Source: Blepharisma japonicum (taxonomy: Eukaryota; Ciliophora; Heterotrichea; Heterotrichida; Blepharismidae). From it: a stretch of 64,000 nt of DNA. Numbering within the stretch: position 1 is the first letter of the stretch; the number at the start of each line of letters is the position of its first letter. This document shows positions 15,886 through 56,659 of this stretch, one piece after another. The notes beneath the pieces are model-generated. The model was not told the DNA's origin and did not search any database. It saw only the letters and a list, made by a program, of their open reading frames with translations. The stretch is taken from positions 186,001-250,000 of the forward strand of contig CATKHK010000007.1 in the NCBI GenBank assembly GCA_949751835.1, in the 5' to 3' direction. Position numbers and translations under genes: made by a program.

Positions 15886-16563
15886 TTATGTTGAATGGCT
15901 TTGTTTGGTTAAATAATTTGCTGCGCTATCCAATTCATTTTTTAATATTTCATTATTCATTTCAAGCTCTTCTAAATGAGCTTTTAATCTCCATAAAATA
16001 AATTGGTGATATTTTATGACAGACTCATCCCCATTTTTCAGAGTTTTACTCAAATTCTCATACTCAAGTGCTAAAGGTCAGAAGTTTTCACAAACACTAT
16101 TAAGTTCTTCCTCAAGCAGCTGCTTTTGGTTGCTATCTCTGTCAAGATTATTTATTACAATTTCAATCTCATTTTCTTTATTTTCACATGAATTATTCCT
16201 GAATTTTTTACTAATCTGTTCAATTTTGTATTTAAGCTCATCAATATTTTCTTTATTTTTTCTTTTTTCCTCTTCCATCTCAAATAGTTTCATCTAAGTT
16301 AAAAATACCGAAAGTTTAGCTGATTTATTATAATGGTCATCATAGTGGCTTTTTTCATCGTTGTACTGCTGCTTTAATTGCGTGAATTCATTTGATAAAT
16401 TTTCTGATGATGGAAGTATTTCTACATTTTCTCCTTTTTTTAACATTAAACTAATAGTTCAAGTTCTTGGCTTCACGTTTATCTCATATAAATGCTGAAT
16501 TAATAGCGGGTTCTTTATTTTTAAAGGCTTTGGTATTGGAGAGCTTGAACAAATGTTTCCCAT
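15886..16563 (-). CDS. Myristoylation-signature coiled-coil protein with one 15-nt intron, 220 aa
   Basis: The coding frame starts MGNICSSS, a strong N-myristoylation pattern with an adjacent palmitoylatable Cys. It runs to an in-frame TAG that is the end of a 15-nt intron (16294-16308). After removal the frame continues through a Glu/Lys coiled coil to TAA at 15886-15888. Two TGAs are read as Trp. Nothing enzymatic is visible. It is probably a peripheral membrane protein with a coiled-coil body; partner and function unknown. Its first half would be missed or its start misplaced if the intron were ignored. Confidence 0.78.
16294..16308 (-). other. 15-nt spliceosomal intron
   Basis: On the minus strand it reads GTATTTTTAACTTAG, begins GT, ends AG, with A at position 10. 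It removes an in-frame TAG and joins two open frames in phase 0. Confidence 0.88.
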
Positions 16564-16643
16564 TTATCATTATTTTTAATGGAAATCTATAAATTGCCAT
16601 TGATTATCGAAATTAGTTTTTATTATCCCTAACATTGTATTAT

Positions 16644-18761
16644 TTATCTAATAGGGACTTCAGGGACAAAGTTGGTATTTCTAGCTGGGTTAAAAGCTTC
16701 AGAGCACTTAGCCATCGTTGGAGAAGCACGGGAAATTGCGTCTGTCATATAAAAGTTATCAATAAAATCATTTATGACTGTCTTGTTTACTTCACCTTTA
16801 ACAGGGACTGTATGCCAGCTTAAACTATAAGGTTCAACATAGTCATATTTAATCAAATGTGGAGCAAGCTCAGCAATTCTGTATCTAATTTCTTGTAAAT
16901 TGTCATAAGGCAGTGTTTGACCTAGCACCTCACTGAGAGCTCTAAGGATTTCCCAATCAGCTTTAGCTTGTCCTGGAGCAGATATTGCTTTTTTCCCTAG
17001 ACTTACTCTTCCATCAGTATTCACATAAGACCCTGATTTTTCTACATAGGAAGCTCCTGGAAGAATTAAATTTGCTCTAGATGCTCCTTCATCTCCATGG
17101 GTTCCTTGATATACTACAAAAGCGTCATCTGGGATTTCATCAGGTCTGAAATTATCTGCTCCTAATAAATACACAAACTTTGGTTTAGCTTTAGGGTCAT
17201 AATTGCTGGTGATTCCAAGCTCCAATGCAGCGACAGTGCCTACATCATTATGTAGCACATTATATCCATTCCAGTTTGACTCTGGCTTAATTACATTGTA
17301 TTTCTTTGCGATTTCTTGGACTATGGAATTCAAAGCTTCACCGTCTTCTCTTTTCAGCATATTGGACCCTACCAAAATCATTGGGAATTTTGCTTTTTCT
17401 AATGTTTTTGCAAATGGGTGGGTTCCTTTTAATAGATCAGTTAGAGCTGATGTAGAGGTTCCTAAGTGGGTGTGGTCATAAGTCAAGTAATCATCAGTTC
17501 CAATCAATCCTACATTTAAGCCATTCAAAACAGTTGCTTTTCTAACTCTTGCATTTATAACAGGAGAATCAAGCCTTAAATTGGCTCCAATTACAAGCAA
17601 TAAGTCAGCTTCTTCAATTCCAGAAATTCTGGAGTTCATCAAATAGTTATTTCTGAAATCAGGGCTCAGTTTGACTCCATTCTTTTTAGCGTCAAGATTT
17701 TCACATCCAAGCTTATACATCAAATCTCTAAATGCGACAACTGCTTCAACGTCCATAAATTCTCCAATAATTCCGACCATATCATTTCCTGACGTCTTTG
17801 AAACCTCTTGAGCTAGAATTTCAAGTGCATCTTTCCAAGTAAGTTCTTCATAGCTGCCATCAGCCTTTTTCCTCAAGCAAGCGTTTAATCTTTGTCTTTT
17901 CAAGCCATCAAAAGCATGACGTGACCTATCATGAATCCACTCCTCATTGACTTCTTCATGGAGCCTTGGGAGCACCCTTTTGACTTCTCCACCTTTGCAG
18001 CTGATTTCAATTGATGGAGTAATTGAATCTGTAGCATCAATTGACATAACATTTCTCAGTTCCCAAGGCCTAGCAGTAAAAGCATAAGGAGCATTAGTCA
18101 GAGCTCCGACTGGGCATAAATCTACCAAGTTTCCTGAAAGCTCACTGTGCACCATTTTTTCCACATAGGTCCCAACTTCAGTTTCTCTGCCTCTTCCAGT
18201 TGTTCCAAGAATTGGAATTCCTGCGACTTCTTCATAAAATCTTATGCAACGGGTGCAGTGGATACATCTTGTCATTACTGTAGCAACAAGTGGGCCGTAA
18301 TTTTTATCCTCCACAGCTCTCTTGTATTCCATGAACCTTCCAATTTTGTAGCCATAAAGCGCTGATTGGTCTTGAAGGTCGCATTCGCCTCCTTGATCGC
18401 AAATAGGACAGTCTAGAGGATGGTTTGCAAGCAAAAATTCCATAACACCTCCTCTGGCATTATACGTCTTTTCTGACTTGGTGTTAATTCTCATGCCTGG
18501 AGAAACTGGCATGGAGCAGGCTGTCATCACTTTGGGCATTTTTTCGATTTCTACAATGCACATTCTGCAGTTCCCAGAGACTGCCAGTCGTTCATGAAAG
18601 CAGAAGTGGGGAACCACGACACCAGCTTTTTGGCAAGCTTGGAGAATGGAGTAGTCGGGAGCTACTGACACTGGTGTTCCGTCGACAAAGACTTCGATAT
18701 TGTTCAGTAGCCGAGATGATGTCTTGAATTGACGAGAAATCTTCTGGCAAAGTTTAAGCAT
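16644..18761 (-). CDS. NDUFS1: NADH:ubiquinone oxidoreductase 75-kDa subunit (complex I, NDUFS1)
   Basis: The 705-aa protein is the iron-sulfur subunit of mitochondrial complex I that carries electrons from FMN toward quinone. An N-terminal basic presequence (to about residue 20) is followed by a 2Fe-2S domain with C54, C65, C68 and C82. The HxxxCxxCxxxxxC ligand set for cluster N5 is H114, C118, C121 and C127. The N4 cysteines start at C166, C169 and C172. The molybdopterin-type large domain follows without catalytic function. Length matches animal NDUFS1 (about 727 aa). The frame is uninterrupted, and every Trp uses TGG, unlike many neighbours. Confidence 0.97.
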   Translation of the reverse strand: MLKLCQKISRQFKTSSRLLNNIEVFVDGTPVSVAPDYSILQACQKAGVVVPHFCFHERLAVSGNCRMCIVEIEKMPKVMTACSMPVSPGMRINTKSEKTYNARGGVMEFLLANHPLDCPICDQGGECDLQDQSALYGYKIGRFMEYKRAVEDKNYGPLVATVMTRCIHCTRCIRFYEEVAGIPILGTTGRGRETEVGTYVEKMVHSELSGNLVDLCPVGALTNAPYAFTARPWELRNVMSIDATDSITPSIEISCKGGEVKRVLPRLHEEVNEEWIHDRSRHAFDGLKRQRLNACLRKKADGSYEELTWKDALEILAQEVSKTSGNDMVGIIGEFMDVEAVVAFRDLMYKLGCENLDAKKNGVKLSPDFRNNYLMNSRISGIEEADLLLVIGANLRLDSPVINARVRKATVLNGLNVGLIGTDDYLTYDHTHLGTSTSALTDLLKGTHPFAKTLEKAKFPMILVGSNMLKREDGEALNSIVQEIAKKYNVIKPESNWNGYNVLHNDVGTVAALELGITSNYDPKAKPKFVYLLGADNFRPDEIPDDAFVVYQGTHGDEGASRANLILPGASYVEKSGSYVNTDGRVSLGKKAISAPGQAKADWEILRALSEVLGQTLPYDNLQEIRYRIAELAPHLIKYDYVEPYSLSWHTVPVKGEVNKTVINDFIDNFYMTDAISRASPTMAKCSEAFNPARNTNFVPEVPIR

Positions 18762-18902
18762 ATTTATTAAGAATTGAGGAGTTTATTTGAATTATCGGAA
18801 TTCTTAGTGATAACGAGAGATTAGTAAATTACTGAAAATGCTTTTGGTGTGGGGATTAAGTATGCAAAGGAGTATGAGAGATTTATAAATAAATAATCCA
18901 TT

Positions 18903-21900
18903 ATGAGCATCCCTATAACAGAAGGAAGTTATTCTCTGCTTTGGGATAGAGAACACTCATTTAAATTACATAAAAAAAGACTAGATGAAATCAAAAATAA
19001 AACCTCAAGAAAAGCGAATAAATCAAGCTTTGATGCCAAGAAACATTGTTTGTTGAAAGAAAAGACAAGGGCGTTCCTTGAGCAAGAAAAAGTCGATGAA
19101 ATTAATAAGCAGAACCAGAAATTCCTTGATAAATTGAATGCGATAAAATTAGGCAAAAATAATGTAATTGTTACTTAGAAAAATTCTTCAAGTTCAAAAG
19201 ATCTTAGTGAGAGCAAGAGCCTTAATTTTACTAAAAGAAAAAGAGAATCTGAAAGAATATCATATGAAAATGAAATGTTAGTAAAACGGCTCTCTGATCA
19301 GCCTTCAAATGTTTCTCGCCAAAAACTTATTGAGGAGTATGAGCAGGTAGAAAAATATAAAAATGCAATTTCCAGAACAAAGCTTCATGAAAAACTTAAA
19401 AAGCTGGCGCATTTTGAAGGAAGATATAATCATTTGCCACCACTTGATGAAGATAAAAGTGAATCAAACAATATTGCATCTATGTCAAGGTCTCATTCAG
19501 TTCTACCAAAAGATCATCTAAAAAAGAAAGATTTTTCAATGACTGATAGAATTTCATTAAAGAGCAATAATAAAGAAAGAAAATCTTCAACTCAAACTGA
19601 TTTTCAATCTAAGGCCCAAAGAGGCAAATCTCTTAGTAAAAAAATTTCTGAGGGTTCTTTTGCTTCTTTCGAAAAGAATGAGAAAAAATTCTCTAAAAAT
19701 AATATCAAGAATAAAATTTTAAAGGCAAGTCGGGAATCAATGTATTCTAAAACTCCTGAGCCAATCTCAGGAGGTAATACTACAGAACCAATTTCACAAG
19801 GTAACAACGCTGAGTTGGTCTCACAAGGTTCCAATACTGAACCAATTTTACAAAGCTCTAATTATGAGCCTATTTTTCAAAACACTAATATTGAGCCGAT
19901 TTCACAAGTTTTTAATACTGAGCCAATTGCGGAAATCTCTAATTATCCTATTTCTCAAAACACTAATGCTGAGCTGATTTCAGAAAATTATAATACTGAA
20001 CCTGCGCTAGAAAGCACTAAATTTGAGCCTTTTTCTCAAAATACTAACGTTGGGATGATTCAAGATTCTGATATCGATTCTATTTCAGAAAGTATCAATG
20101 ATGAAGCTTTTTCTCAGAATGCAGATGCTGAGCCAATTTTGCAAAATTCTAATGCTGAGCAAGTTTTACAGACCTCTAATTCTGAGCCAATTTCTCAAAA
20201 TATTAATGCTGAGCTGATAAACAACCCTGATGTTGATATTATTTCAGAAAGTGTAGATGTTGAGCCTATTTCAGAAAGTGTAGAGGTTGATCCTTTTTCT
20301 CAATATAATAATCCTGAGCCTGTTTTCCAAAGTTCAAATGCTGAGCCTATTGCAGAAAGTTCTAATACTATTATTCAAAGTATTTCTCTTGAAGAAATAT
20401 TGTCTATAGAAAAGAATGAAGATATTTTCAGCCATAAAGAAGAATCCAAATTAGAGCCAAAAAGCAGAAGAGAATCAATTTTGGCGAGCGAAAGCGCAAA
20501 ATCAGGAATTTTCAGCAAAGAAAATTCAAAATTAAAGTTGGAAAGTCGTAAAGAGTCAATTCATGCGAACGAAAGTGCAAGATCAGAAATTTTTAGCAAA
20601 GAAAATTCCAAATTAAAGTTGGAAAGTTGAAAAGAGTCAATTCATGTGAACGAAAGCGCAAGATCAGAAATTTTCAGCAAAGAAAATTCAAAATTAGAGT
20701 TGGAAAGTCCTAGGGAATTAATCTATATGAACGAAAGTGTAAAGTCAAAAGAAATTTTCATCAGCAAAGAAAATTCCAAACTAGAGCTAAAAACATCAAA
20801 AGAATTAATTCATATGAGTGAAAGTGTAGAACCAAAAGAATATTTGAGCAGCAAAGAAAATTCCAAATTAGATATGGAAAGTCAAACACCAAGAGAATTA
20901 ATTCATATGAATGAAAGTGTAGAATCAAAAAAATATTTGAGCAGCAAAGAAAATTCCAAATTAGATATGGAAAGTCCAAGGGAATTAATTTATATGAATG
21001 AAAGTGTAGAACCAAAAGAAATTTTTAACAGTCAAGAAAGTTCGAAACTAGAAGAAAATCAAAAAGAGCCAATTTCTATGAATGAAAGTGCAAAATCAAA
21101 AGAAATTTTTAATAGCAAAGAAAACTCCAAATTAGAACTGGAAAGTCCAAGGGAATTAAGCCGCATGAAAGAAAGCGTAGAACAAAATGAACATATGAGC
21201 AGTAAAGAAAATTCAAAATTTGAGCTGGAAAGCCCAAGAGAATTAAAATATATAAATGAAAATGTTGAGCCAAAAGAAATTTTCAGCAGAGAAGAGCTGG
21301 AAACTCCAAGGGAATTAATTCATATGAACGAAAGTTCAAGATCAAAAGAAATTTTCAGCAAAGAAAATTCCAAATTAGAGCTCAGAAGTCCGAAAGAATT
21401 AATCCATATGAACGAGAGTGCAGAAATTTTTAGCAGCAAAGAAGATCCGAGATTAGAACTGGAAAGCCCAAGAGAGCTAATCCCTGCAGAGCCAAGAGAT
21501 AGTATCAGCAGCAAAGAAGACTCAAAATCTGAACTGAAAAGCCCAAGAGAACTAATCCATATAGAGCCAAAAGATATTTTCAGTAAACAAAATTCTATAT
21601 TAGAAATGGGAACTCCAAGAGAAATCCATGAAGAGCCCAAAGAAATTTTCAGCAATGAAGATTCTAAGTTAGAGCTGAAAATACCAAGAGAATTTATCCA
21701 TTTAGAGCCAAATGAAAGTTTCAGCAAAGAAGGCACTAAATTAGAGTTGGAAAATTCAATAGAATTAATCCATGCGAATGAAGATATTGAACCAAAAGAA
21801 TTCAACGAAGCTGATGTGGAGAAAGAAGAAAGCAATTTGCATGAATATAATAAAGATTATGAAATAGAAGCCCACGAAAATTCTCAAAGCAAAGCCCATA

Positions 21901-21935
21901 CTCCTGATAAAGAAATTGAAATGATTGGTATTTAA
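18903..21935 (+). CDS. Repeat-rich protein with CFAP97/Hemingway-like N-terminus, 1,005 aa
   Basis: One gene with a 15-nt intron (19164-19178) and one TGA read as Trp at 20628. The first about 190 residues are ordered: LLWDREHSFKLHKKRL followed later by MLVKRLSD and LKKLAHFEGRYNHLPP. This recalls the CFAP97/Hemingway pattern of ciliary and basal-body proteins, a tentative match. Residues about 285-490 are a nonapeptide repeat (N-x-E-P-I-S-Q-x-x). Residues about 505-970 are a 27-31-residue repeat built on SKENSKLELESPRELIHMNES. The repeats are Glu/Ser/Lys/Asn-rich and likely extended. A structural cytoskeletal role is inferred. Confidence 0.75.
19164..19178 (+). other. 15-nt spliceosomal intron
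   Basis: GTAATTGTTACTTAG, GT...AG with A at position 10. It removes an in-frame TAG and joins the N-terminal 87 codons to the long downstream frame in phase 0. Confidence 0.9.
19770..20370 (+). repeat. Tandem 27-nt coding repeat (nonapeptide N-x-E-P-I-S-Q-x-x)
   Basis: About twenty imperfect copies of a nine-residue unit lie in frame. Copies differ at several codon positions, so the array is old. Unit length is mostly 9 residues, with occasional 8. Confidence 0.82.
20434..21790 (+). repeat. Tandem 81-93-nt coding repeat (27-31 aa)
   Basis: About fifteen copies of a unit containing SKENSKLELES, PRELIHMNES and VEPKEIF lie in frame. Neighbouring units at 20830-21000 are nearly identical in sequence, pointing to recent unit duplication. 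One unit carries TGA where sister units have an Arg codon. Confidence 0.82.
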
Positions 21936-29428: not shown

Positions 29429-31033
29429 TTAATTTTGATTATGCAAACTTTCTTCTTTTTTCGCCATTTGGGTAGCTCTTCTTACAGTCAATCGTTTCTG
29501 CGAGAGTCTTCTCGTTGCTTTTCTTTCTTTCCCTCTCCCATCATTTGCTTCCTCAGGTAAAGCTGAGGCATCTTCTGAAAAGCATGTCATGATTTCTTTA
29601 AAGTCCCCAAAATTCATCCCATTCCCAGCTTTAAGCTGAAATTCATTTAATATCTCAACCATATCTAATTCTGATATGAAACATCCGGCTTTTTCCAATG
29701 CAAATTTTAACTCTTCTACTTGAATTGTCCCATTATTATCAACATCAAAATGCTTAAAAGTGCTTCACATGGACTCTTCGTCAAGTAGCCTTTTCCTGTC
29801 CATTGCTGCTATAAGAAATTGTGTGTAATTTAATTTTCCGTTACCTATATAGTCAATTTGTTCAATTAAAGAGGCTATCTCTTCACTTGCTAAGGAGTAG
29901 CCATTTCTTCTCATTGCGTCAGAAATATCCTCTGCTGTGATAAATCCTGTTCTGCTTTGGTCAATTTCTTGAAATGCTGCTTGTAGCTCAGCTATTTGCT
30001 CCTCTGATAAATCCCTAACGAAAACTTTCATTGCTTCTTGCCACAATTTACTAGGGGCTTTTAAGCTTTTAATTGAATTAAAAATTTCAAGCTTGATATG
30101 CTGAGCATGGTTTTTTTGTCCTAAATAGTTAAATCATGGATGAATTAAAGCATTTTTAATAGAAATTCTATGATGAGGATTCACTACAAGGAGCTTTTGG
30201 ATTAAGCTTTTTGCATGTTTTGATATGACTGTTCATCTGTCATCATCAAAGTTATATTCGCATTTAACAATTTTTTTAAATAGACCTTTAACATCATTTG
30301 CACGAAATGGATGGGTCCCTGAAAGCATAAAATACATTAAAACACCTAATGACCATACGTCGCACTCTTTTCCATAATTTCCTTTCAGCACTTCTGGAGC
30401 TACATAATAGGGAGTCCCTACCATAGTATGAAGAGTATGGTCTTCACCAAATCTATTTGACATTCCAAAATCTACAAGTTTTATATCAGCATCATGCGCT
30501 TTGCTCGCAAATAAAAAGTTTTCTGGCTTTAGATCTCTATGGACTATCTTTAAGCTATGCAAATGATTAACAGCAGAGAGCATGCACTTCATGATTTTTC
30601 CGACTTCATCTTCAGTCAGCACTTGCTTATTTAGGATATAGTCAAAAATATCTCCTCCGGTGCATAATTCCATAACTAGGTGGATATATCTGGCGTCTTC
30701 ATATATCTCATACAGTTTTATTATATTAGGATGATCAACAAGTTTTAAAATATCGAGTTCTCTTTTCATTGTCACTAGATTCTTTTTGACCTTGTCTTTG
30801 CATATAGATTTAATCGCGTATGTTTTTTCCATATGAATGTCTCTAATCTTTTTTGCTTCCCTGACAGTTCCAAATTGTCCATAACCTAGGACTTTAAGAA
30901 ATTCGTATTTTTCTCTGATACCTAATTTAAAATTACTTTCAAGCCTGACGTCATTTGATATTTCTGAGGTAGAAAGAATGCGAGCTTTACGAGGATTTTT
31001 CAATTGGGATTCTTTACATATACACACTCCCAT
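29429..31033 (-). CDS. Calcium-dependent protein kinase (CDPK)
   Basis: The 534-aa product, joined through in-frame TGAs, starts MGVCICKESQ (myristoyl plus palmitoyl signature). The Ser/Thr kinase domain has the G-loop LGYGQFGTV (49-57), AIK at about 73, HRDLKPEN (165-172), DFG (188-190) and APE at 212. After a junction helix come four EF-hand-like units. Loops near 358, 394 and 430 have Asp-rich Ca2+ ligands; the fourth (around GNGMNFGDF) lacks the first acidic ligands and is probably non-binding. CDPKs of ciliates, plants and apicomplexans couple Ca2+ to phosphorylation at membranes. Confidence 0.95.
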
Positions 31034-32119: not shown

Positions 32120-33721
32120 TTATCTACGATTCTCATGTCTTTTCGCAATTTCGTTCTGCTCTCTATGGAACTCTGCATGTATATCTTCGATTTTCTTGAC
32201 TTCTTCTTTATTAGATTTTTGCCAATTATTTTTCCTTTCGTCCATAAGGTTCTAAATATCAATTACCATAATGAAAAATCTAAGTTTATTTGAAAGCTCT
32301 CCACTTCTATGTTCAAGTAAACTTCCAAGGTAGTCAAAAATCCTGGTTGTTTCTGGCTTTAGCATTGATCTTTCAAAGCTTATTCCACCTGTGCCTAACA
32401 ATATACATGCCCCTTCAAGCTTGTCTTCATCTATCTGGTCTGAAATTACTCTTTCAGGAGGGTCATGCTTTCCTGGCAGTCCTACTAAGTCATGGACGCA
32501 TTGCAGCACGACTCTTGCAGTGATTAATTTTACGTTAAAAAGTTCACCGATAAAACGAACATTTCCTAGGGTTTTTTTCTTTAAGAGGTTTCGCTTATTT
32601 TCTTTTTGTTCTTCGTTTAATCCTTCTAAATAATTATCCTCAGGATTATACGAAAAAGATTCCTCACATATGTGTAGCAATTTATGCTTAAAATGGTTTT
32701 TCGACTTGGACTCTTCTCCAGGATACTTAAATCCTTCAAACTGTTCCTTAAAATATCCACAAAGCTTCGCGTACATTTGTGTGTATTTCTGTTCTGATCA
32801 TGCTTTGTCAAATATTCCTTTCACTAATAGTCCAAGCTTCTCATAGCTTTCTCTCGCAATTTGTAGAAGCTGATCTTGAAGTTTTTCTAAATTATTAGGA
32901 GAAAGCTTGTTTAAGGTAACTCTTACCTGTCTTTTTACCTTTTCTTCATCTTCTACTGTAGCTTTTAACTTCTCTGTATGTACTCTGGCTCTGTGGAAAA
33001 TTTTTTCTTCTTCTTTAGTCTTTTCTCTTCTCCAGTTTAAAACCATCGGCTGCTGAGCTTGGCGTTCTTTTTCTCTTCATTCTCGGTCTTTTTGACTCAT
33101 TTTTTTGGTGTTGTGCCGATGCTCTCTTCGCTTGATTAAAATTGTTCTTTGGCTTGTGACTAATAGTTCTTGGTCTATATTCTTAAAATCACTGTGGTTT
33201 TCGAATTGATCTTTGAGGCTTCATATAATATCATAAGGATAGACATATCTCCCATTTACTTTCTCTACTTTTATATAAGAATCTGAGCTGGAGTCTGATT
33301 CTGAGGAATAATCATCCTCACTCTCCTCTTCTTCTAAAATTGGCTCTTGGATAGGGTCAGCTTCTTGAATGAAAGGCGTTGTGGAAGGAAGAGTGGAAGG
33401 CTCAAAGCTGGTTGATGAAATTGTTGGGACAAATTCTGAGGCTGACGGAGAAAAGTTGACACTTACGAATTCTTTTGCGGATGGTTGAAGGGATGAGGGC
33501 AGAGCTGTGCTGGGAGCACCAGGAACGAATTCAAAGGCTGTTGGGTTCCACTTTGTAGGTTCAGATTTTGGTATTGAAATTGCTCCAGGAACAAATTCTT
33601 CTGCAGTAGAATTAAATGCAGACTTTTTTGGAGAGTCCTTTAGATGAGGTTGACCTTGATCGGGAGGAGCAGAACTGATCCTCTTTGGTAATAGGCCTTG
33701 CCGGGAGTCAGGTCCCTGCAT
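32120..33721 (-). CDS. MIF4G protein with four PAM2-like motifs (PAIP1/eIF4G-like), 528 aa
   Basis: Frames join through in-frame TGAs, plus one 15-nt intron after residue 485. Residues 36-100 hold four spaced motifs resembling the PABP-binding PAM2 peptide: FNSTAEEFVPG, WNPTAFEFVPG, LQPSAKEFVSV and FSPSASEFVPT. An acidic Ser/Asp segment follows, then a MIF4G domain from about residue 226 (LNKLSPNNLEKL, VRFIGELFNVKLI, ACILLGTGG, KLRFFIM then NLMDERKNNW). A short charged tail ends at TAA 32120. PAM2 plus MIF4G is the plan of PAIP1; eIF4G contacts PABP differently. It most likely bridges poly(A)-binding protein to the initiation machinery. Without the intron the last MIF4G helices are lost. Confidence 0.83.
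32252..32266 (-). other. 15-nt spliceosomal intron
   Basis: Minus strand GTAATTGATATTTAG, A at position 10, phase 0. Removal restores the conserved MIF4G helix ending in NNW. Confidence 0.92.
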
Positions 33722-34783
33722 AATTAATATGGCCAGTGTACGATAATGAAGTTTTATTTACAAGATCTAGTGAAAATTCTTGTAGTGTCGCTGTTTATTA
33801 AATAGTATTAAAAAATGTAAATACTCATCAATATTAGAATCCTGTGAAAAATCAGTCTTTTTGGAATTTATTTTACTTCAATAATTTTCACCTTAAAAGA
33901 TATGTCGTACATATTTTATCCAGAATTTGCTTCAAATCAAAATGGAATTTATTTTGTTTTTTTTCTCCTTTCAAAAAACAGTTCTATTAGTTATAATCCA
34001 ATTAAATTTAAATATCAAAATATCATTGCACTGCTTAACTGCGGCATGGTAATATCCAATTCAATGGGTTGATTTTCTATTTTTAGGAAGACAAATTTAA
34101 TATAGGTAAAAAAGTTGTTAAAAATTAGCTTTTCAGTCAAGTATTTATTTTCTTAACACTATATGCATCGAAATTAAGATATTTATTAATAAAAATTGCA
34201 TAAAAATTTGTTTTAATTATGATAAGAGTAAATAATTTAAGAGCTCTCTATCAAAGCTTGAAATTATTTAGTCAAATATTTTAATGATATTTTGAAAAAT
34301 TATTATTTGCACTTATATTTCTTCTAAATTTTTGTTTCTTATATAAATCCTGGAGAGTTTTTAAGTTAAGTCTGTTATCATTTTTAAAGTCTTTATTATA
34401 TAGTTTCTTCACCCAAATTGTTAAGGACTCTACAAAATATTTTCAGACTTTAGAAAGCAATAAAGGTTTACCCTATAAGAAATTCTACGACTACAACTCA
34501 TCGATATTTTTATTATAGAAGCTTTTATTTTCTATTCTGCAATATCTAAATATTTTTTTCTAATTTCGTCAAAATTTATAAAAAAATATAAAAGTGACTC
34601 CATAATTATCTCAAAATTTTTGAATAAATCTGAGGCTAATACATTTACTTTAAATCCATATTAATATTATATTTCCAATCGATAATTTCATAAGCACTTT
34701 TGGAATGAATTTAAAATAAAAAATAGGTTATAATTTATTGGATTGCTTAATAAGTAATAGAGAGATAAAATATAGTAATAATC
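33722..34783. other. Longest spacer, 1,062 nt, AT-rich
   Basis: Divergent spacer between the MIF4G gene and the AGC kinase gene. It contains one doubtful 67-codon frame (33902-34105). No repeat array, tRNA or strong hairpin was seen; homopolymer T and A tracts are frequent. It is unusually long for this window and may hold regulatory DNA or a decayed gene. Confidence 0.45.
33902..34105 (+). CDS. Doubtful short ORF, 67 aa
   Basis: With TGA as Trp this frame stays open for 67 codons from ATG to TAG. The product is Phe/Ile/Asn/Ser-rich with no family resemblance. It could be a real small protein, a fragment of a decayed gene, or chance. It stands in the longest spacer of the window and nothing else supports it. 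Confidence 0.18.
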
Positions 34784-36611: not shown

Positions 36612-38888
36612 TTAAGTTGCAGCAGGAGATTGTAATTCTTTTTGAATCCCATTTGAAGCTACGCTAATTCTTCTGGACGCTGATTCTTCAAACCCAGAGC
36701 CAGATAAAAACGGCGTTAATCTTCTTTGTCTTCCTTTTTCTTCTCACATCCTATAGTTGCTTTTCAATTGCTCTAGGCAATTAATATTTATTTCTTCTGA
36801 GTGTAGATATTTGCATCACACTTCATATAGTGGTACACATATATTTTTAAGAAACCCAGCTTGACTTTTGTACACATCTGTTGTATCTCGATCACAATAC
36901 ATAGAAACTGGCATTCCTTTAGCTTTTTCTATATCTCCCTGTTTGAAAAATTCATCCATAACAAAAGATGTCCATTTTTCATGCTGCTCTGGAATTTTCG
37001 CACTGTGACCTATATCTGCACATTTTAATCCCATTGATAAAATAATAATTTTATCATCATGATTTTCCATTGATAAATCAGATAAATTATTAGCTCGGGT
37101 ATTGAATTTCCCCAAAATTTCGAAATGCCGTCCCATATCAGTTTGCAGGATCATTTCTATTATTAATTTTCTGCATTTAACATAATCTTCGTTTGATAAA
37201 TTTTGAAAAATATTCTGGCCTGTTTTTTGCATTATGCTATATGTTTTATAAACATGCATATTTTCCAATACTCCTGCATCATTGTATTGCAAAGCGAGAT
37301 CATCTCTGTTATTTATTAAAAACCTGTTAGAAACACCAGGGTGCTCAGCATCGTGGCCTAAAGCAGCTACAATGCAAGACATAGTGTCTAAGGGCGTTAA
37401 TGTTTGAAGTAACTCACCTCGAATAATGAAATATAAAAGAGTATGTAAAACATCTGCTGCATGGCAAGCGTTGTGATAAGCATTTTGGACATGATAAGAC
37501 TATATAAATATTACTCTTTCTAGTGCTTGGAAAAATTTATCAGAGACCTCTTCTTGGATTGAAAAAGTTTCATTTAAGCTTCATTTTTGGAATAAATATT
37601 TTGCAACTATTGAAAGGCTGCTCCCAGTTGTCTGATATACAAACCATATATCAAATTTTCAATTAACCCCGATACAATATAAAACAGTTTCCAATTCTTC
37701 CATTCCATAGCTTTTGGCTAAAAATTCAGGCTTTTTTTCTTGAACGTCAAGCATTGATATTCTTCTCACAGCTCCTCTCTGTGTTTTTTCATGCTTATGA
37801 TCTAAGCAAAGCTGCAGCACAAATGCTCTATCTTGTTCATCCATTTCTTGATTTTCACTGAATTTGTCAACGTTAAACATGAACATGTCTCCATGAGCTA
37901 TTTTTCTTTTAATTTTTTCTATTTCAATAGTTGCGTTTTTTAATTTTACTTTGACGTCTTTAAACATAATAACAGTCGCTGCAGCTTTTATATTTTGTTT
38001 TATTTTATCTATAGCTCCTACAGTCACTTCAATTTCAGAATTAAATGCATTTTGGTTGTTTTTTTCTAGCTCTAAAAATGATGGATTTGGATCTAAAGCT
38101 TCTTCTTCTTTTATCTTCCTATAAAACAGTTGTTTTGCTCTCATTTCTGCTTGATGTGCTTCAATAATCTGGACAACAAAGAAAATAACTAAAACAAAAA
38201 AATCTGAGAGAACAGCAAATGGTGACAAACTTGTCAACGTCAAAAAGCAGCCCAGCATAAGTATCATCGTTACAAAAGAAATTCCAACAATAATAAAAAA
38301 ATTATCATAAGTAATTGTTCTCAGCAGTACTATAAAACAAGCCATTGCTAAAGTATGGGTCTGGGCATTAGGATTATAATCTTCACCAAACATTCCTGAT
38401 AATACATTTTCGTCACATAAAACTAAATAAAACATAATCAGCAGACCAAGAATTCCGAAAAATAAATTTGTGTAATAAGCAAAATGATGATATTTTCAGA
38501 TAAAGTATAAAACTGTGTATGACATCACTAAAATCATTGTTAAAAAAATCATTCTCACCGTAAATGGGCCAGTTTTGATTTTATCTGAGTTATAGAGTAG
38601 TGATCATGTAGCTAAGGAAATAACTAAATAGCATGTTAGAAATAAATAAAAAATCAGCAAGTTATTTTTGTATTCTCGGGATAAGTTGCTATCATTTTGC
38701 TTATGGAAACATAGAGTTTCTAAATATTTTTTGTTCAAAATCTTTTCTTTGTAACTTATAAAATTCGGATTTATTGGGAAGCAAATACTTTCATGTTCTT
38801 CATGGCCAAGAACTGAATATATAGCATGGCCAGTTTGTCTGAAATAAGGAGGGTCTCCTCTTCCACCTTCTAGATGAGATCTTCGCAT
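36612..38888 (-). CDS. Membrane-bound class I cyclic-nucleotide phosphodiesterase, 753 aa
   Basis: Several TGAs (Trp) and one 15-nt intron join this gene. The N-terminal about 240 residues hold six hydrophobic segments, then a cytosolic linker, then the PDE catalytic domain. The metal-binding motifs are HNACHAAD (467-474, directly after the intron), HDAEHPG (507-513) and CADIGH, with the AGFL helix near the end. It would hydrolyse cAMP and/or cGMP at a membrane; specificity cannot be read. The intron is certain because unspliced sequence breaks the HNxxH block with a stop. Six-TM PDEs are known from ciliates and apicomplexans, unlike the soluble mammalian forms. Confidence 0.92.
37500..37514 (-). 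other. 15-nt spliceosomal intron
   Basis: Minus strand GTAATATTTATATAG, A at position 10, phase 0. Splicing joins ALER to SYHVQNAYHNACHAAD of the PDE active site. Confidence 0.95.
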
Positions 38889-39098
38889 TTTGACTAATAA
38901 TTTACGGTTTTTGAAAAATTAAAATTTTATTAATTGAATAAACTGAGATTACTTAATATGAAATTGGGAAAATTTGTAAGAAAATTATATCAGGAAACAG
39001 ATTTTGAGGAAATACTATAACTTTGAGCTTTTAATTGTTGAAAAATGTAGAGAATGAATAATGGAAGGAATTTTAGACTAATATTAAAAAAAATGAAT

Positions 39099-42400: not shown

Positions 42401-43971
42401 ATGACTCTGTACGGGTAATTGATTTAGGTTTTCATACTAGCATTGTAGACTTTAAAGAAGGTATTTATGGGTTTGAAGGGGGGAGCTCAGCTTTAGTTTC
42501 ACCACAAGGAAATTTTTTAGCTGTGAAGTGCAATAATACTGTTGGAGTTTGAAAAATAGGTGATGGAGACGCATGAAGATTGACTGAGCTAAACCATAAA
42601 AATGATAGCGTCGCATCAATGAATTTTTCTTATTGCGAAAAATTTCTATCGACTATAACTTATATGGGAAAAATCACTATTTGGAATATAGTTTATAGTG
42701 AAAAAATAATGCATTTTAAGTGTCCCGGCTCAAGATGCAAAAAAATATGCTTTTCACCTTGTGGTGAGTTCTTTGCTATTTTAATTGGATCAATCAGTAT
42801 AATAAGCTTAGAGACTAAAGCAGTTGTATATGAAATATCAGATGCTTCACAGGATGCAAATCTGTGATGCTTTTCTCCTTCTGGGAATTATCTGGCCACA
42901 ACTAGTGAAGACACTCTAAAATTATGGAGATTTAAAGATGCTACCAAAGTTACAACAATTTGCAAGCCTATTAAAAAGAAGCATATAAAATCTTTAGTGT
43001 TTTCAAAATTTGGGAATATTATTTCTCTATGATCAGATAATATTATTAGGATTTTTAGCTTTCCTGGAGAAGAGCTGCTACATGAGCTAAAAGGTGACAA
43101 AGATGTTGATTTTTTTTGTGTTTCGCCTAGTGGGCAAACTTTAATATCAGTTCCTGAATATCACTCTGAAATTACTATTTGGTCACTAGAAACTTATGAT
43201 CCTATAATTAAAATAAGACCTAAAGAGCAAATTCAGGCTATTGATTTTTCACCTTGTGGCAGATATTTTGCTTATGGAGGTGGAAACTCAGAGTATTTAT
43301 ATATAAATGACCTTGAAAATATTGATGATGAAGTCTCAATAGAAATGGCGCTGCAAGAAATTAGATCAATTTGTTTTTCTCATTCTGGTAAATATATAGC
43401 ATGCTCATACCTATTTATTCAATTATGAGATAAAAATTCAAAAATAACTTCAAGTTTAATAACTGACGACGCTGAATCTTTAAAAATTTGTTTTTCAAAA
43501 TGCGATAAATACCTTGCATCTGCATGCTCTGATGGAACCATAAGGATATGAAATATAGAAGCTGTTGAAATTATCAGCATTGTAAAGGCTCATGCAGAAG
43601 TGCATCAAAATCCGCTTTTTAACCTTGATATGTCGATGTTCGGGGTGAGCGATTTAATTACTAATCTAGAGTATACAAATTGTGGCCGATATTTATTAAG
43701 TGCAGGAAATGATGGCTATGTTAAAATTTTTGATGTAATAGCACAGAATACTTTCTATGAAATTAAGGCTCATATGCAAAAAGTGGTTTCTGCTGGTTTT
43801 TCACCTGATGGGGATTTAATTTTTTCGGCAGGAGGAGGAGTAGGAATCAGACTATGGGACTTTAAACAAATATTGGCTAAAAAGAAGCATGTAATAAAAA
43901 TTGAAAAATCGGAGTGTGGAAAATTAATAATGGTATCAGAAGACCATCATGAGCAGAAAGATGAGTCCTAA
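39418..43971 (+). CDS. STAND/NACHT NTPase with long WD40 array, 1,517 aa
   Basis: A single frame of 1,518 codons becomes visible once about 17 TGAs are read as Trp; no TAA or TAG interrupts it. Residues 1-100 form a helical N-terminal region of unknown fold. The NTPase module has Walker A GGSGSGKS (160-167), Walker B KKVLFILDGFD (222-232) and a sensor-like strand IIITWRH, as in NACHT/STAND ATPases. From about residue 580 to the end there are at least ten WD40 repeats; most of the W residues closing the blades are TGA. An acidic insert (EEEEEDDDEYE) sits in one blade. STAND proteins are ligand-triggered oligomerising switches in NLR-type immunity, cell death and signalling. No effector domain is recognised here. 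Confidence 0.88.
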
Positions 43972-44025: not shown

Positions 44026-45699
44026 TTATCGATGATAGAGCTGAATAAAAATTACTAATTGTGGTGTGTTTGGAGAGTATGAGATCCTTGGCGTCATTCT
44101 ATACTTTTTTTGTAGTAAACTTGGCATACTCATCTGAGTTATTGGTCTTTGCATAGGCGTGAACCCTGGAGTAAACAATCTTTGATTGCTCAGGGGATCA
44201 GGACTTGTCCTTGGTTGGAAATCGCCCCTTGTTGTATATTCAGTTAAAAATGTTTTTCTATCAAGATTTCAACTTTTGTCAATTGATTTTTCCTTAATAG
44301 TTATTACCATCCTATTTCTAACAGAAATTGTATATAAATCTTTGAACTTCTCGATATCTCTTAAAATTTCTTGATACTCATTCTCTAGCTGCTCAAAGTT
44401 GAATTTATCAGTTTCAGAATTAATTTTGTCAGCTTGCAAATAATTGAATTTAATAGCTTTTTGGAGGTTTTGCCCCATTTCTATCACTTCTACTTGCTTT
44501 GATTGATTTAACTTTTGGTCAATTGATTTCTCTATATCTTCTAGGCTTGGTCTAGAAACTTCCGGATGATTAATAACTTTTCTTTTTTTAATTCTACTAA
44601 TTAACTTATCGATTGTTGTATTGCTCATAGATGTCTTCAAGCTCAAAGAATTTAGGCTCGACTTTACTGTTTCTGAAATTAAGCTGTCAATAGGTTGATA
44701 CGAGCTTTTTCTTTTTTTTACTATTTCAAGGATAATTCCAAAAATCCTATTTATTATTTACTTTGGAAATCTTGATACGAGCCATTGGTTTTTTTCTGAC
44801 ATCAAACTTTCATGATTTTTCCTTTCATTTTTATTTTCTAATTCTTCAAATATCGTCATCTGAGTATGAGCAAACCCAAAAAGTCCTAAAGCTTCTTCTT
44901 TCATTTCATTATATTCTCGCCTAAATATTCTTTACTCTAAATCATGGATTTCTGCTGTTTTTTCTATTTTGAGCTCCCACATTTCTTTTTCTATTGATTT
45001 AATTCTTTTTTCATATTCTTGCTCAAGTTCATTGATTTTATCCCTCATATTATGATGCTTGTCAATAAATTTTTTCCTATAGCTTGCTTCATTTTCATTT
45101 CTTCCGATTTCTCACATATTTACAGCTTCTTTAAATCCATCAGCTTGATTTATAAAAACATTTTTTATGTTGTGCAGATTTGAGTATTTTTCTTCAATTT
45201 CTATATGTTTTTGCACTAATTGCTGCTGAAGTTCTTCGTCAACATTTCTCAAAGTTTGCTCTTCTAAACTTTCATTAAATTCTCTTATAATAGTTCGGTA
45301 TTTTGAAATTTCATATTCTAATTTTTTTACTTCTTCACTGTTCTCAAAACCTGCCTTTATTTTGACTTTTGCTTCTTTAATGGATTCAGCATTAATTTTT
45401 AATCGTTCTTCTAACTCTTCATTTCTTTTAGTATAATTTTCCATTCTCTGATACACTTCTCTATATCGTGCTGCAATTTTATATTCAATTGAATTTTGAT
45501 GAGCATCAATCATTGACTCTAAATCTTCATCAATCCCTATCAGTTTTCCGAAACTTTTCAGTTTTTTCTCATGAATTGTTTGGACATCTTGTATTCATTT
45601 TTTTAAGTCTTTGATTTCTTCTTCAATCTTGTACATTCTTTCAACCTGCTCTTGCTTTTGCATTAAAGTTAAGGTTCTCTTCATAGCCCTTCTGTCCAT
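44026..45699 (-). CDS. Long coiled-coil protein with two (possibly three) 15-nt introns, 547 aa
   Basis: Starting at MDRRAMKRTL, the protein is coiled coil over most of residues 1-330 (motifs such as RNEELEERLKINAESIKEAK). A Lys-rich middle and a Pro/Thr-rich tail follow. Introns at 44921-44935 and 44747-44761 remove in-frame TAA and TAG codons, and several TGAs are read as Trp. A third GT...AG segment of 15 nt near the 3' end (44041-44055) has no stop but fits the intron pattern. If it is spliced, the protein is 542 aa. No family is recognised. It converges with the STAND gene. Confidence 0.78.
44041..44055 (-). other. Candidate ninth 15-nt intron (no stop codon inside)
   Basis: Minus strand GTAATTTTTATTCAG, GT...AG with T9-A10 as in the proven introns. 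Retention would add VIFIQ to the protein. Only the match to the consensus supports it. Confidence 0.5.
44747..44761 (-). other. 15-nt spliceosomal intron
   Basis: Minus strand GTAAATAATAAATAG, A at position 10, splitting a Lys codon. It removes two in-frame stops (TAA and TAG). Confidence 0.88.
44921..44935 (-). other. 15-nt spliceosomal intron
   Basis: Minus strand GTAAAGAATATTTAG, A at position 10, splitting a Glu codon (GA|G). It removes an in-frame TAA and joins two coiled-coil segments. Confidence 0.88.
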
Positions 45700-45871
45700 C
45701 TTTTTACAATTCTAATAAAAAAATTTATTAAAATAAAATACGAATTATACTTATATTGCAAGTTGATATAAAGTAAAATTGACATAAATTTTATTTATAT
45801 TCAATCATATCTATGCCAATACCAGATACTTATTATTGTTTAATTTTTTTACTTTTAAATATAAGATTATT

Positions 45872-47149
45872 TTAATCGCTAAATACTAAATTAAAACTCA
45901 AAGAGTTTATGAAAGTTTGGTCAGTCACAATCAATGAGTCTTCTCCATACAACCCTTGGTCAATCAATTCCTGGAAAGTCAAATCGAGCTTAAACCTGTG
46001 CTTTTCTTCAAGAGCAGGTGGCTTTGGCATGTACAAAATTCCAGCCCCGCAAGTTATAGAAGGGCTTATCATTTTATACTTTGAGCTTGTATCAGTCAAA
46101 ATGCTTATGAAATCTTTCAATTTTGAGTTTTTGCTAATATAGATCACCCCAGGTTTATTACTGCAAACTAAACAATTAGGGTCTTTTTCTATCTGCAGTG
46201 TTGCTGTATGTATCCCAGTTTGTCCCATAAACATAAAATAATTATCCACCGGCTTAGTCACATAAGTTGCTACTTTTAATGCCTCAGCGGCACAAGCAGC
46301 TGCAACAATTGCATTAGTCGATGCAATAGCTGGTATAATATTTTTAACAACTCCCATAGTTTTCATATATGTAACTCCTTCAATTCCATAAGCTTTTGCT
46401 CTTTCTAATGCAGTTTCATATATCCAATTCATGTCCTCAAAGCTATCTTTATCAACTTTTTTATTAGGAAATGTTTTTTCCCACTCAATCACATAGGCGT
46501 ATTCAATACAATGTTCAGGAATTCTTGGGGTTTCTGCAATTGTGCACATTGGGACACCTTTTTGGGGAGTCATCATAGCGAGAGTGCACTCATAACAAGC
46601 GGTTTTATAAGGAATCACAACTCTGGCTTGACCTTTAAAGCCTTCAGTGCCACCATCTATAATAGGTCTGATTGTTTCTGGTAGAGGTTCTCCATCTTTA
46701 TCAAACTTTACCATACTGTGAATCATTGAGTTTAGCCATCTGCGGGCTTCAATGTTGTCAAGACCGGCAATTATTATATGAAAGCCACTATAAAATTCTT
46801 CATCAAATTCTTGGATAGGGCAGGTGTATGCTTTTACTTTGCATTCTGGGACTCTTTCCATAATGAATTTAGCAGCAACTTCTGATTTGTAAGAGCCTAC
46901 GTCAGATTGGCGAAATAAAAATTGACGGTTGAGGTTGGTGATATCGATACGGTCAAGATCGATCACTTCAATGTCACGAAATCCACTTAGTGCTAAATCT
47001 TTAAGAATTTCACATCCAAGCCCGCCTGCACCAATAACCAGCACTCTTGCATAATCTCTAAGCACTGATTTAATTTCTTCACCTGGCTGGAACTCTGCAG
47101 GTGCTAATTCAGAGCTTTTTAATAGAACCCTATCTAAATCAGTCCACAT
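45872..47149 (-). CDS. UBA3: NEDD8-activating enzyme E1 catalytic subunit UBA3
   Basis: The 425-aa protein shows the E1 adenylation motif VIGAGGLGCEILK (GxGxxG at 40-45), NLNRQFLF and the Zn-binding CYEC pair (C185, C188), with the later NCLVC pair. The catalytic Cys is C202 in KGVPMCTIAETPR. PRIPEHCIEYA and the short C-terminal ubiquitin-fold domain place it as UBA3, not UBA1 or UBA2. With its APPBP1 partner it activates NEDD8 for cullin modification. All Trp codons are TGG. Its start lies just 20 nt from the divergent start of the next gene. Confidence 0.96.
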   Translation of the reverse strand: MWTDLDRVLLKSSELAPAEFQPGEEIKSVLRDYARVLVIGAGGLGCEILKDLALSGFRDIEVIDLDRIDITNLNRQFLFRQSDVGSYKSEVAAKFIMERVPECKVKAYTCPIQEFDEEFYSGFHIIIAGLDNIEARRWLNSMIHSMVKFDKDGEPLPETIRPIIDGGTEGFKGQARVVIPYKTACYECTLAMMTPQKGVPMCTIAETPRIPEHCIEYAYVIEWEKTFPNKKVDKDSFEDMNWIYETALERAKAYGIEGVTYMKTMGVVKNIIPAIASTNAIVAAACAAEALKVATYVTKPVDNYFMFMGQTGIHTATLQIEKDPNCLVCSNKPGVIYISKNSKLKDFISILTDTSSKYKMISPSITCGAGILYMPKPPALEEKHRFKLDLTFQELIDQGLYGEDSLIVTDQTFINSLSFNLVFSD

Positions 47150-47169
47150 TAGATTTTTATTATAAAAAC

Positions 47170-48618
47170 ATGAAAAGGCCAGAAGATACTTTTGCGTTGA
47201 CTTCTATTGATGAAAAATTGAATTCACGCTCAACAGTGAGGAATCCAAAGCAAGTCCAATTACCGAATATCAAATCTGTCCCAACGCTTTTTATGAAAAC
47301 TTCAATGACTCCATCAACAAAAGCGACGCCACGAGCGAATTATACGTCAGTCCCTTCAACAAGAAAGGCTCAAAGTCGGTCCTCAGTAACACATGATTTA
47401 CTTAGAAATATTCAACAAAGGGCAAACCAGTAACTCCTATATAGAGAAATTGAAGAACTGTTTACACTTAAAGCTGGAGACCTCACTGATACAGTGAGAA
47501 AGCTTGAAAAATCAAAATATGTAAAAGAGGTCATCAAAGATTTATATGACCATGTACTAAGGAAAAAAAAAGAATATAATTCTTTGAAGCATGACCAAAG
47601 TTTACTAAAAGCTGAATTAGACTCACTAAATCAGAAATATAACGATTTAACGCATGTTGAAAAAGAAAACACCGATAGGCAGCAATATCTGGGAAACTTG
47701 CAAGAGAAATTTGACAAGCTGCAGAACAAAATTGATCTAGAATCGATTTTTACCGATTCATTGAACCATATGGCGAATGTTAGATATTTGAATTTGTGCT
47801 CAATTAAAGACCCGACTAGGCTATTAAAATCACAAATAGTGCACACTCTAGCCCAAAATAAAATTTTAGATCGAGGAAGCGAATATCACATGACTTCTGC
47901 ATTAGCTACAAGAGGAAAATTAGGGAAAATCCAAGAAAACATTAATTCTCAACGTACAAAGATGAGGGAATTACTGAACCAAGAATTAAAAAAATATGAA
48001 GAAAGAAGTAAGGCTATTGCATTTTATAAACAAGAGCAACAGCTTTGGTATAGGCAAAAAGAAGCTGAAATAAAAGACCAAGATATCAATAATTTAGTAA
48101 AAATTGACAATGAAGTCAGAAAAGGTGACAAGCTTCGGCTAGAATTTGTAGAAGCAAGCCAAAATTTAGCATCAAGGGAAGGAGAAATTTCTGAAGCTCT
48201 TCGAATTACTAATTCCACCTCTGTGTCTAACCTCTTCAGTCAGCTTCAAAAACTTCGAGTTACTAAAGAGAGTCTCGAATCATTACGAGCTGATTTAGAA
48301 GCTACACTCCGCAGGCAGCAAAATGAAATAGAAAGACTTAATAAAGAATATGATAATTTAAGCTTGCAAAAACATCAAAAGGATGAATATGACTATCATA
48401 CTCTTTATGATTTAGAAGTTGGGCTTTCTAAAAGAGAGCATGAGTTGCAAACTCATTCAGAAGACTTGGATAAGGTTAAGGCAGATTTTTCTACCGGACT
48501 ACTTGGGCTGAACAGAATTATCCAAAAACTTGGAGAAAATAACGATATAAGAGAAATCAGGACTATAAAAGACGCAATTGAATATATTTGTGATAAAATT
48601 AATCATTTAACTGAGTAG
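47170..48618 (+). CDS. Coiled-coil protein with one 15-nt intron, 477 aa
   Basis: The ATG at 47170 opens an N-terminal basic, Ser/Thr/Pro-rich region of about 85 residues. After the intron at 47430-47444 come long coiled coils (residues about 95-160, 230-350, 380-440) to the end. The organisation, a basic disordered head then segmented coiled coil, is like IFT-B coiled-coil subunits or dynein-docking proteins, but I could not match a specific one. An upstream in-frame ATG at 47101 lies inside UBA3 and is not used. The stop is 2 nt from the convergent TMEM222 stop. Confidence 0.8.
47430..47444 (+). other. 15-nt spliceosomal intron
   Basis: GTAACTCCTATATAG, A at position 10, splitting a Gln codon (CA|A). 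It removes an in-frame TAA and a TAG and joins head and coiled-coil body. Confidence 0.9.
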
Positions 48619-48620
48619 AT

Positions 48621-49139: not shown

Positions 49140-49161
49140 ATTTTTATTATCCTAAATTAAC

Positions 49162-53007: not shown

Positions 53008-53044
53008 ACTGAAAAATGTGAATGATTTTTCGAATTAATTAATT

Positions 53045-54091: not shown

Positions 54092-54149
54092 TTGTATAAT
54101 AAACTGTTTCTAGGCAAATATTAAATTATTTATAATTAAAAAAATTATA

Positions 54150-55145: not shown

Positions 55146-55604
55146 ATGAAATTTTCTATTGATTCCATCAATGAAACCCAAACAATTCGCACATTTACTT
55201 GCTCAAATCATGAGTGCTCTCCTTTAAAACTTGCCTTGACAATAGCTTTTCTCTCAATTTTCGGGTTTTATCTAAAACAATTCTGGACAATTCTAATAAT
55301 CGTATATCTCTGGCAAAAATACACAAATGAAATTATTGAAGAAACTCTATGTGTAATTAAAGGAGTTGGCATTCAAATCACTGAAGTAAAGAGAAACTGA
55401 GGCACGAGTCATTTGTTTATAGAATTGAGTGACATTCGTGAAATAATTATTAATGAAGGCTTAACCCCATATGATGTGATTACCTACATTGGAATAATTC
55501 TTCACAAACATACAAAATTAATACTTCCTTTCAAGAAATTTTCAATTACTCAAGATCAAGCTAAAGAGATTTACTTAGGCGCTAGAGAACTTTTATTTGA
55601 ATAA
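55146..55604 (+). CDS. PIGH: GPI-GlcNAc transferase subunit PIG-H
   Basis: The 152-aa product (one TGA read as Trp) matches PIG-H. A hydrophobic hairpin (LALTIAFLSIFGFYLKQFWTILIIVYLW) is followed by EETLCVIKGVGIQIT, FIELSDIREIIINEGL and the helix YIGIILH. The INE motif in the last strand is diagnostic. PIG-H is a small subunit of the ER complex that makes GlcNAc-PI, the first step of GPI anchor synthesis; ciliate surface antigens are GPI-anchored. It is shorter than the human protein (188 aa), mainly through a shorter C-terminus. Confidence 0.9.
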
Positions 55605-55651
55605 TTAAATTATTTTAGTTTAATAAATGTAATATAATAAGATCTGAGAGT

Positions 55652-56659
55652 TTAATCGTCATTATCTAGCTTGATAGCTAGATAATAATCATGGAGTATT
55701 TCGAAAACTCTTTCTTCAAAATTTCTGCAAGCAAAGTCCAATTCTTCAATGAGGGCCTTTAACTTTTTATTTTTTTGATTTATATAAGCATAGGTGAAGC
55801 ATCTCGATATCACTGATGGTATTTTAAAATTATGATTTGTTTTGCATAAATCATAAGATCTACTTTGTGATTCTTCATTTTGATTTTCAAGCATTCGATT
55901 ATCCTGAGAAATTTCTAATAAAAACTTTATCACACTTAGTGCTGAATCAAAATAAAATTTTGCCAATGTTTTAGTTTCTTCATCAATGCCTAATTCTTCA
56001 GGTAGGTTTTCTGCCTCGATGCTTAGTCATATAGATTCTATTGTAAAATAATCATTAGTCAAGCTCTCCATATCTAGTAGCCCTGTGTGGCCATATTTTG
56101 GTGAAAATCTATAAAGCAGATTTGTTAGATTCCCAATCTTCCACTTTATTGTTAGTTTGGATGCAAACTGCAAAAGTTTTCTTATTAAATCGTATTCGTC
56201 ACAATACTCACCAATAATTTTTTCGCCATAGTCTTTTCTTGCTCTTTTGTCTTCAAAATCGTCTATTTGATCCTCATCAATACGATAATATGGATGGCAA
56301 TATTTAATTGCTGATAAATCTAAATCTTTTTGCTTGTTGCTTCATATTTCTGAATATAATATAGCTAGTTCACTATCTAAATCGTCATATTTTATCTTCC
56401 CATAATTTTTCTAAATAATTTTTACCAGTTTTTTCTTTAAAATTCCTTTTAGATTCTTAAGATTGTATTTTGGCTTCCCATTTATTTCAGAAGGTTTATG
56501 ATTACTTACAAAGTTGGGAACTGAGGCATCTGTCATTGGCGTTAGTGGCTCTCGATTGCTGAAAATATTTTCCATATCAGAATTCTTCTCAACATGATCA
56601 CTATCAATATGAAATCTGACTCCATGCTTTTCTTCTTCAAGCGGAACTGATTCTTCCAT
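55652..56659 (-). CDS. Unrecognised protein with one 15-nt intron, 330 aa
   Basis: The intron at 56411-56425 joins an 80-residue head (acidic then Lys-rich, MEESVPLEEEKHG to KGILKKKL) to a 250-residue body. TGAs in the body are read as Trp. The body is helical, with no motif I can name; the segments LQFASKLTIKWKIGNLTNLLYRFSP and KFYFDSALSVIKFLLEIS look globular. Without the intron and TGA reading, only fragments of this gene appear. It converges with PIG-H, 47 nt apart. Confidence 0.75.
56411..56425 (-). other. 15-nt spliceosomal intron
   Basis: Minus strand GTAAAAATTATTTAG, A at position 10, phase 0. Removes an in-frame TAG and joins LKKKL to KNYGKIKYDD. Confidence 0.9.

Follow-up and report, generated by a model that had tools for sequence, protein, structure and literature searches.

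We analyzed a 64,000-nucleotide (nt) stretch of the Blepharisma japonicum genome (positions 186,001 to 250,000 of contig CATKHK010000007.1, assembly GCA_949751835.1; hereafter the window). Several of its genes are interrupted by in-frame TAA or TAG codons that lie in GT...AG blocks of exactly 15 nt. We asked whether these blocks are introns, and conclude that they are most likely, and with little room for doubt, spliceosomal introns of the U2 type that belong to the minimal, 15-nt class of heterotrich ciliates, in what is most likely a Blepharisma somatic genome.

Eight 15-nt GT...AG blocks with an adenine at position 10

The initial annotation had proposed eight such blocks, and we found all eight, each 15 nt long and bounded by GT and AG. 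Those at 19164 and 47430 read GT..AG on the + strand, while the six at 16294, 32252, 37500, 44747, 44921 and 56411 read GT..AG on the - strand (CT..AC on the + strand). The putative introns are as follows.

16294..16308, - strand: intron GTATTTTTAACTTAG, phase 0, in gene 15886-16563 (-)
19164..19178, + strand: intron GTAATTGTTACTTAG, phase 0, in gene 18897-21935 (+)
32252..32266, - strand: intron GTAATTGATATTTAG, phase 0, in the MIF4G/PAM2 gene 32120-33757 (-)
37500..37514, - strand: intron GTAATATTTATATAG, phase 0, in the cyclic-nucleotide phosphodiesterase (PDE) gene 36612-38918 (-)
44747..44761, - strand: intron GTAAATAATAAATAG, phase 2, in gene 44026-45711 (-)
44921..44935, - strand: intron GTAAAGAATATTTAG, phase 2, in gene 44026-45711 (-), shared with the intron at 44747
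47430..47444, + strand: intron GTAACTCCTATATAG, phase 2, in gene 47074-48618 (+)
56411..56425, - strand: intron GTAAAAATTATTTAG, phase 0, in gene 55652-56752 (-)

The adenine at position 10 (A10), which the annotation had described as invariant, is present in all eight. A single A at one position is unremarkable in A-T-rich DNA. Across all 259 GT(11)AG 15-mers of the window, the introns counted in, the fraction with A10 is 0.35, so that eight out of eight would arise by chance with a probability of about 2e-4.

Frame rescue by GT..AG excision peaks at 15 nt

We examined 264 kb of sequence, comprising the window and positions 1-200000 of contig C1, using an in-frame dicodon score trained on 88 non-overlapping long frames from this region with TGA read as sense. 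A rescue was defined as a GT..AG excision of 9 to 60 nt that rejoined interrupted coding frames, with an open frame and a positive coding score on each flank; counting without the coding score was too noisy at lengths that are not multiples of three. Excisions of 15 nt produced 27 rescues, whereas those of 12 nt and those of 18 nt produced 5 each. Background rescues at multiples of three rose with length, reaching 14 at 48 nt, and seven other pairs of end dinucleotides gave 2-8 rescues each at 15 nt. All eight window blocks are among the 27, as are two rescues with identical letters (56314 and 58516, apparently a duplicated stretch) and two that overlap each other (175980 and 175987). A10 played no part in the selection and is present in 23 of the 27.

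A consensus was built from 33 distinct introns, namely the 23 A10 rescues plus 11 introns from protein kinase genes (described below) minus one duplicate, a set in which only the kinase introns were not chosen for A10. It reads AAG/GTAATT..T9 A10..TAG, with the slash at the exon end, and GTA occurs in 32 of the introns, T9 in 28 and T13 in 28. The most frequent last exon base is G (15/33).

The same data bear on the idea that the blocks are short germline-type internal eliminated sequences (IESs) or TA-repeat deletions, removed from DNA and not from RNA. IESs exist in Blepharisma, according to the cited part of PMC9942856, and GTA...TAG blocks hold a TA close to both ends; removal from TA to TA, however, takes 11 nt and would shift the frame. 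TA..TA excisions yielded 9 rescues when 11 nt were removed and 11 when 15 nt were removed, with no peak over neighbouring lengths, whereas GT..AG excisions peak at exactly 15 nt, and IES removal leaves the conservation of T9 and A10 unexplained. We consider this explanation very improbable.

Stop codons in protein kinase genes fall inside the blocks

A genome-wide search for protein kinase domains gave 134 scored matches, 10 of which contain TAA or TAG (table read by eye), with 11 stops in total. Every one of these 11 stops lies inside a 15-nt GT..AG block, and every one of the blocks has A10, whereas a random TAA or TAG of the window overlaps a GT..AG 15-mer with A10 at a frequency of 0.016. 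In related kinases, some introns share a position but differ in the letters between GTA and TAG (L035, L036 and L040; L037 and L044; by eye).

Ciliates alter their genetic codes, and here TGA is read as sense while TAA and TAG serve as stops, as expected for Blepharisma. The 88 training frames, which were picked with TGA as sense, contain 200 TGA against 326 TGG codons, and a 1517-aa WD40-repeat frame at 39418-43971 (+) of the window carries 17 TGA as sense. Such flexibility lends some plausibility to the proposal that TAA and TAG are likewise read through or reassigned and the five codons of each block translated. That proposal is hard to reconcile with the confinement of all 11 kinase stops to 15-nt GT..AG blocks, or with the drop in the PDE and MIF4G matches when the five codons are kept (see below), and we regard it as scarcely credible. 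The stops might also be sequencing errors or mark pseudogenes, but errors would not be expected to recur, across contigs and in either orientation, within one constant 15-nt motif carrying A10, and we give this account of the stops the same negligible weight.

In-frame stops outside the blocks

It had been claimed that every in-frame TAA or TAG inside otherwise continuous genes lies in such a block. For single-stop interruptions in the window this holds: under a strict filter 7/7 lie in a block (the block at 32252 is lost there, its last exon being shorter than 150 nt), and under a loose filter the eight blocks account for all 8 single-stop rows. The strict filter left four multi-stop rows (1 in the window, 3 in C1) outside any block, and the loose filter, which returned 63 rows (12 in the window, 51 in C1), left four window rows with 2-3 stops each, of which two are antisense to the NADH dehydrogenase gene, one lies right before a gene start and one carries three stops.

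In C1, 6/7 single-stop interruptions lie in a block under the strict filter, and all blocks found under this filter, in window and C1 alike, have A10; under the loose filter 11/35 single-stop rows lie in blocks, 10 of these with A10. Three observations weigh against reading the blocks as introns. The remaining 24 of the 35 loose-filter rows of C1, which were not inspected singly, fall outside 15-nt blocks, although the strict filter removes most of them; at C1:3447 (-) a single in-frame TAA between coding frames passes the strict filter yet has no 15-nt GT..AG block around it; and A10 is missing from four of the 27 rescues at 15 nt, three of which also lack GTA, a number close to chance expectation.

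Homologous proteins fit two predicted splice junctions

The predicted PDE protein was compared with the solved phosphodiesterase 6ezu in a PDB search, and scored 226.2 bits when spliced and 217.8 bits with the intron retained. The alignment is ungapped at the junction when spliced and shows gaps nearby when the 15 nt are kept. The Pfam match stands at 261.8 bits in either case, because the profile begins right after the junction and is blind to it; it was the PDB search that tested the junction. Splicing had been said to restore the HNxxH block of the PDE, which proved wrong: HNxxH lies wholly in the downstream exon, from the ninth residue past the junction, and is never interrupted, whether or not the 15 nt are removed. 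The improvement brought by splicing concerns the segment before HNxxH, which then aligns without gaps.

A parallel statement, that splicing restores the NNW helix of MIF4G, needs the same correction, NNW lying downstream as well; splicing lifts the score of the MIF4G match from 97.7 bits to 104.7 bits. The spliced match reaches profile position 203 of 203, compared with 194 for the unspliced one. Alignments showing coding residues within the blocks had been named in advance as grounds for rejecting them; instead, both PDE and MIF4G score better without the 15 nt. A fit of the junction to homologous proteins was thus found for 2 of the 7 intron-bearing window genes, PDE and MIF4G, and one other intron-bearing window gene gave no match in the Pfam scan.

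Candidate introns without an in-frame stop

Since the blocks were found by looking for stops, the set is biased toward stop-bearing introns, and eight is probably an undercount for the window. In a scan of coding frames with the intron profile, an in-frame stop was present in 22 of the blocks scoring at least 9 and absent from the other 11. The stop-less blocks exceeded those of an antisense control at this threshold (11 vs 4), at scores of at least 11 (8 vs 1) and at scores of at least 13 (6 vs 1), while at scores of at least 7 there was no excess (13 coding vs 14 control). With the excess limited to high scores, the stop-less fraction is poorly measured, at about a fifth to a third. These counts indicate that some 15-nt introns carry no stop, and their retention would add five codons to the protein. 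The scan gave two further 15-nt candidates in the window.

44293..44307, - strand: probable third intron GTAATAACTATTAAG of gene 44026-45711, phase 0, stop-less, profile score 14.1
30922..30936, - strand: probable 15-nt intron GTAATTTTAAATTAG, phase 1, stop-less, profile score 15.0

The gene that holds the candidate at 30922 encodes a protein kinase with EF-hands (29429-31033, -); the site is close to the gene start and has no homology across it. We also considered selection for in-frame stops and rejected it: among the 33 profile-selected introns, which include stop-less blocks of which some are possibly chance matches, 22 carry a stop in the phase in which they actually lie, and permuting the phases predicts 22.3. 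As stops are no more frequent than this prediction, they follow from the consensus GTAA...TA...TAG, with no sign of selection.

A minor 16-nt class

Excision of 16 nt gave 6 rescues in the 264 kb, compared with 2-3 for each remaining length between 10 and 20 nt that is not divisible by three. Four of the six are GTA...TAG, all four with A10. One possible 16-nt intron lies in the window.

135..150, + strand: possible 16-nt intron GTAAAATTCAGCTTAG, with A at position 10; its removal joins two coding frames

Genome-wide, the 16-mer pattern GTAANNNTTATNNTAG, with A10, has 119 sites and GTAANNNNTTATNTAG, with A at position 11 (A11), has 131. We took the first 40 listed sites of each; as both patterns require TTAT at the A, this sample is no census. 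One of the 40 A10-type sites (L045) is also one of the four GTA...TAG rescues. Frames were rescued at 16/40 sites of each type (32/80 in all), whereas the other two frame classes passed at 4 and 4 of 40 A10-type sites and at 0 and 1 of 40 A11-type sites, which supports a minor 16-nt class beside the dominant 15-nt one. Ten of the 16 rescued A10-type 16-mers have no A at positions 11-13 (by eye), and 3 of these 10 also pass another frame class. That all four GTA...TAG rescues of 16 nt have A10 had hinted at a ruler measuring a set distance from the 5′ splice site; the equal rescue of A10 and A11 (16/40 each) led us to drop this idea.

Spliceosomal genes and a divergent U1-like gene

The search for small nuclear RNA (snRNA) genes covered U1, U2 and U6; one gene for U1, three for U2 and one for U6 exceed the Rfam cut-offs. 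Their canonical pairing sequences are kept (ACUUACCUG, GUAGUA and ACAGAGA). An SF1-HH domain is present in the genome over its cut-off, along with three long U2AF-type matches, all below the cut-off of the model.

A second U1-like gene (L010:1501-1661; G000:C17:419159-419319) scores 61.8 bits, under the Rfam cut-off. Its 5′ end is altered, reading UCAAUUACAAUGG, in which AAUUAC replaces ACUUAC and would pair with GUAAUU. By eye, the upstream TCCCATAA element, the TATA-like box and the 3′ flank look like their counterparts in the canonical U1 gene, the upstream element and the flank also like those in the other snRNA genes, and more of the family-structure pairs are broken than in canonical U1. 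Introns exceeded background GTA sites by a larger margin in pairing with canonical U1 (5.36 vs 4.50 pairs) than with the variant (5.55 vs 5.04), so the pairing test lends no support to a role of the variant at 5′ splice sites. L010 may be a variant U1 or a decaying copy, and a decaying copy appears as likely.

Taken with the 16-nt sample, a tentative and rather doubtful extension would be that the distance from the branch to the 3′ splice site is not fixed, an extra base going about equally to the ring (A11) or to the tail (A10), unlike in Stentor, and that the divergent U1 may serve some U-rich 5′ splice sites.

The snRNA loci L009-L014 share the motif TCCC[AT]TAA, located about 55 nt upstream of U1 and U2 and about 60 nt upstream of U6, which looks like a proximal sequence element. 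A TATA-like box is found near -28 in the U1 and U2 genes and is weak in U6.

Other features of the window and assembly

Gene 18897-21935 (+), which holds one intron, encodes a protein with long degenerate repeat runs resembling SKENSKLELESPRELIHMNES (by eye). At 16644-18761 (-) lies a gene for a complex I NDUFS1/NuoG-like subunit (Pfam Molybdopterin, Fer2_4, Fer4_NDSU1 and others). A 24-mer of the telomeric repeat CCCTAACA has 168 genome matches, compared with 0 for the reversed control; among the 100 matches listed, those on contigs of known extent lie at or near a contig end, including that of the window's own contig (C7). These telomeres and the reading of TGA as sense both point to Blepharisma.

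Proposed splicing mechanism and relation to known introns

The length peak, the kinase stops, the homology across junctions and the snRNA genes together support 15-nt spliceosomal introns with A10 as a probable branch point, as first annotated. From sequence we infer splicing of the mRNA, the factors acting and the role of A10 as branch nucleotide. The simplest mechanism would be ordinary two-step splicing with an A10 branch, as proposed for Stentor. U1 would pair with the exon end and GTA (consensus AAG/GTA), and the T9-A10 branch site would be marked by SF1 and then by U2. A10 would attack G1 to form a lariat with a 10-nt ring and a 5-nt tail, the terminal AG five bases past A10 would serve as the 3′ splice site, and the exons would be joined in frame.

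The description of these introns as close to the smallest known needs correction: in size they equal the 15-nt introns already known from Stentor and Blepharisma (PMC9505925, PMC9942806, in the parts cited). As reported in the cited part of PMC9505925, 8173 of 8806 introns in Stentor coeruleus are 15 nt long, 8005 of them having the branch A at position 10, and 442 of 633 16-nt introns have it at position 11. The suggestion that the conserved A is the branch point is credited to Slabodnick et al. 2017 (per the citing passage of PMC10946202). Judged against that same part of PMC9505925, the introns described here resemble those of Stentor in that 15 nt is the dominant length, in their GT..AG ends, A-T richness and A10 in the 15-nt class, and in their conserved snRNAs, those of Stentor including ACUUACCU, GUAGUA and ACAGAGA. 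Unlike Stentor, which uses the standard code, B. japonicum reads TGA as sense. The 16-nt candidates also differ modestly, A10 and A11 being equal in equal samples here, in contrast to mostly A11 in Stentor. According to the Stentor study, the 5′ exon there does not resemble that of mammals, which ends in G, whereas G is the commonest last exon base here.

The cited part of the Blepharisma stoltei study (PMC9942806) reports "predominantly 15 and 16 bp introns", UGA as tryptophan, an AT-rich genome and CCCTAACA telomeres. B. japonicum agrees in intron length class, UGA as sense, AT-richness and CCCTAACA telomeres. The assembly used here comprises 45.2 Mb in 224 contigs, compared with 41 Mb in 64 contigs published there. 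Paramecium and Nyctotherus also have ultra-short introns, but of about 25 bp and not 15, according to the cited part of PMC5014332.

In the literature, the 15-nt class goes back to the Stentor genome paper of 2017 (as described in citing text) and, for Blepharisma, to 2023, as far as the cited passages go. The finding is thus correct but already explained: the blocks look real and remarkable, and are not a new discovery. The present analysis adds two probable stop-less 15-nt introns, one possible 16-nt intron, the parity of A10 and A11 among 16-nt candidates, and the observation that stops are not in excess. As some introns are stop-less and frame-neutral, gene finding based on reading frames would retain five extra codons at such sites. 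Introns of 15 nt present a stringent test for a megadalton spliceosome, with U1/U6, U2 and both reaction centres to be accommodated on 15 nucleotides, and further genomes would therefore each help to define its fixed distances.

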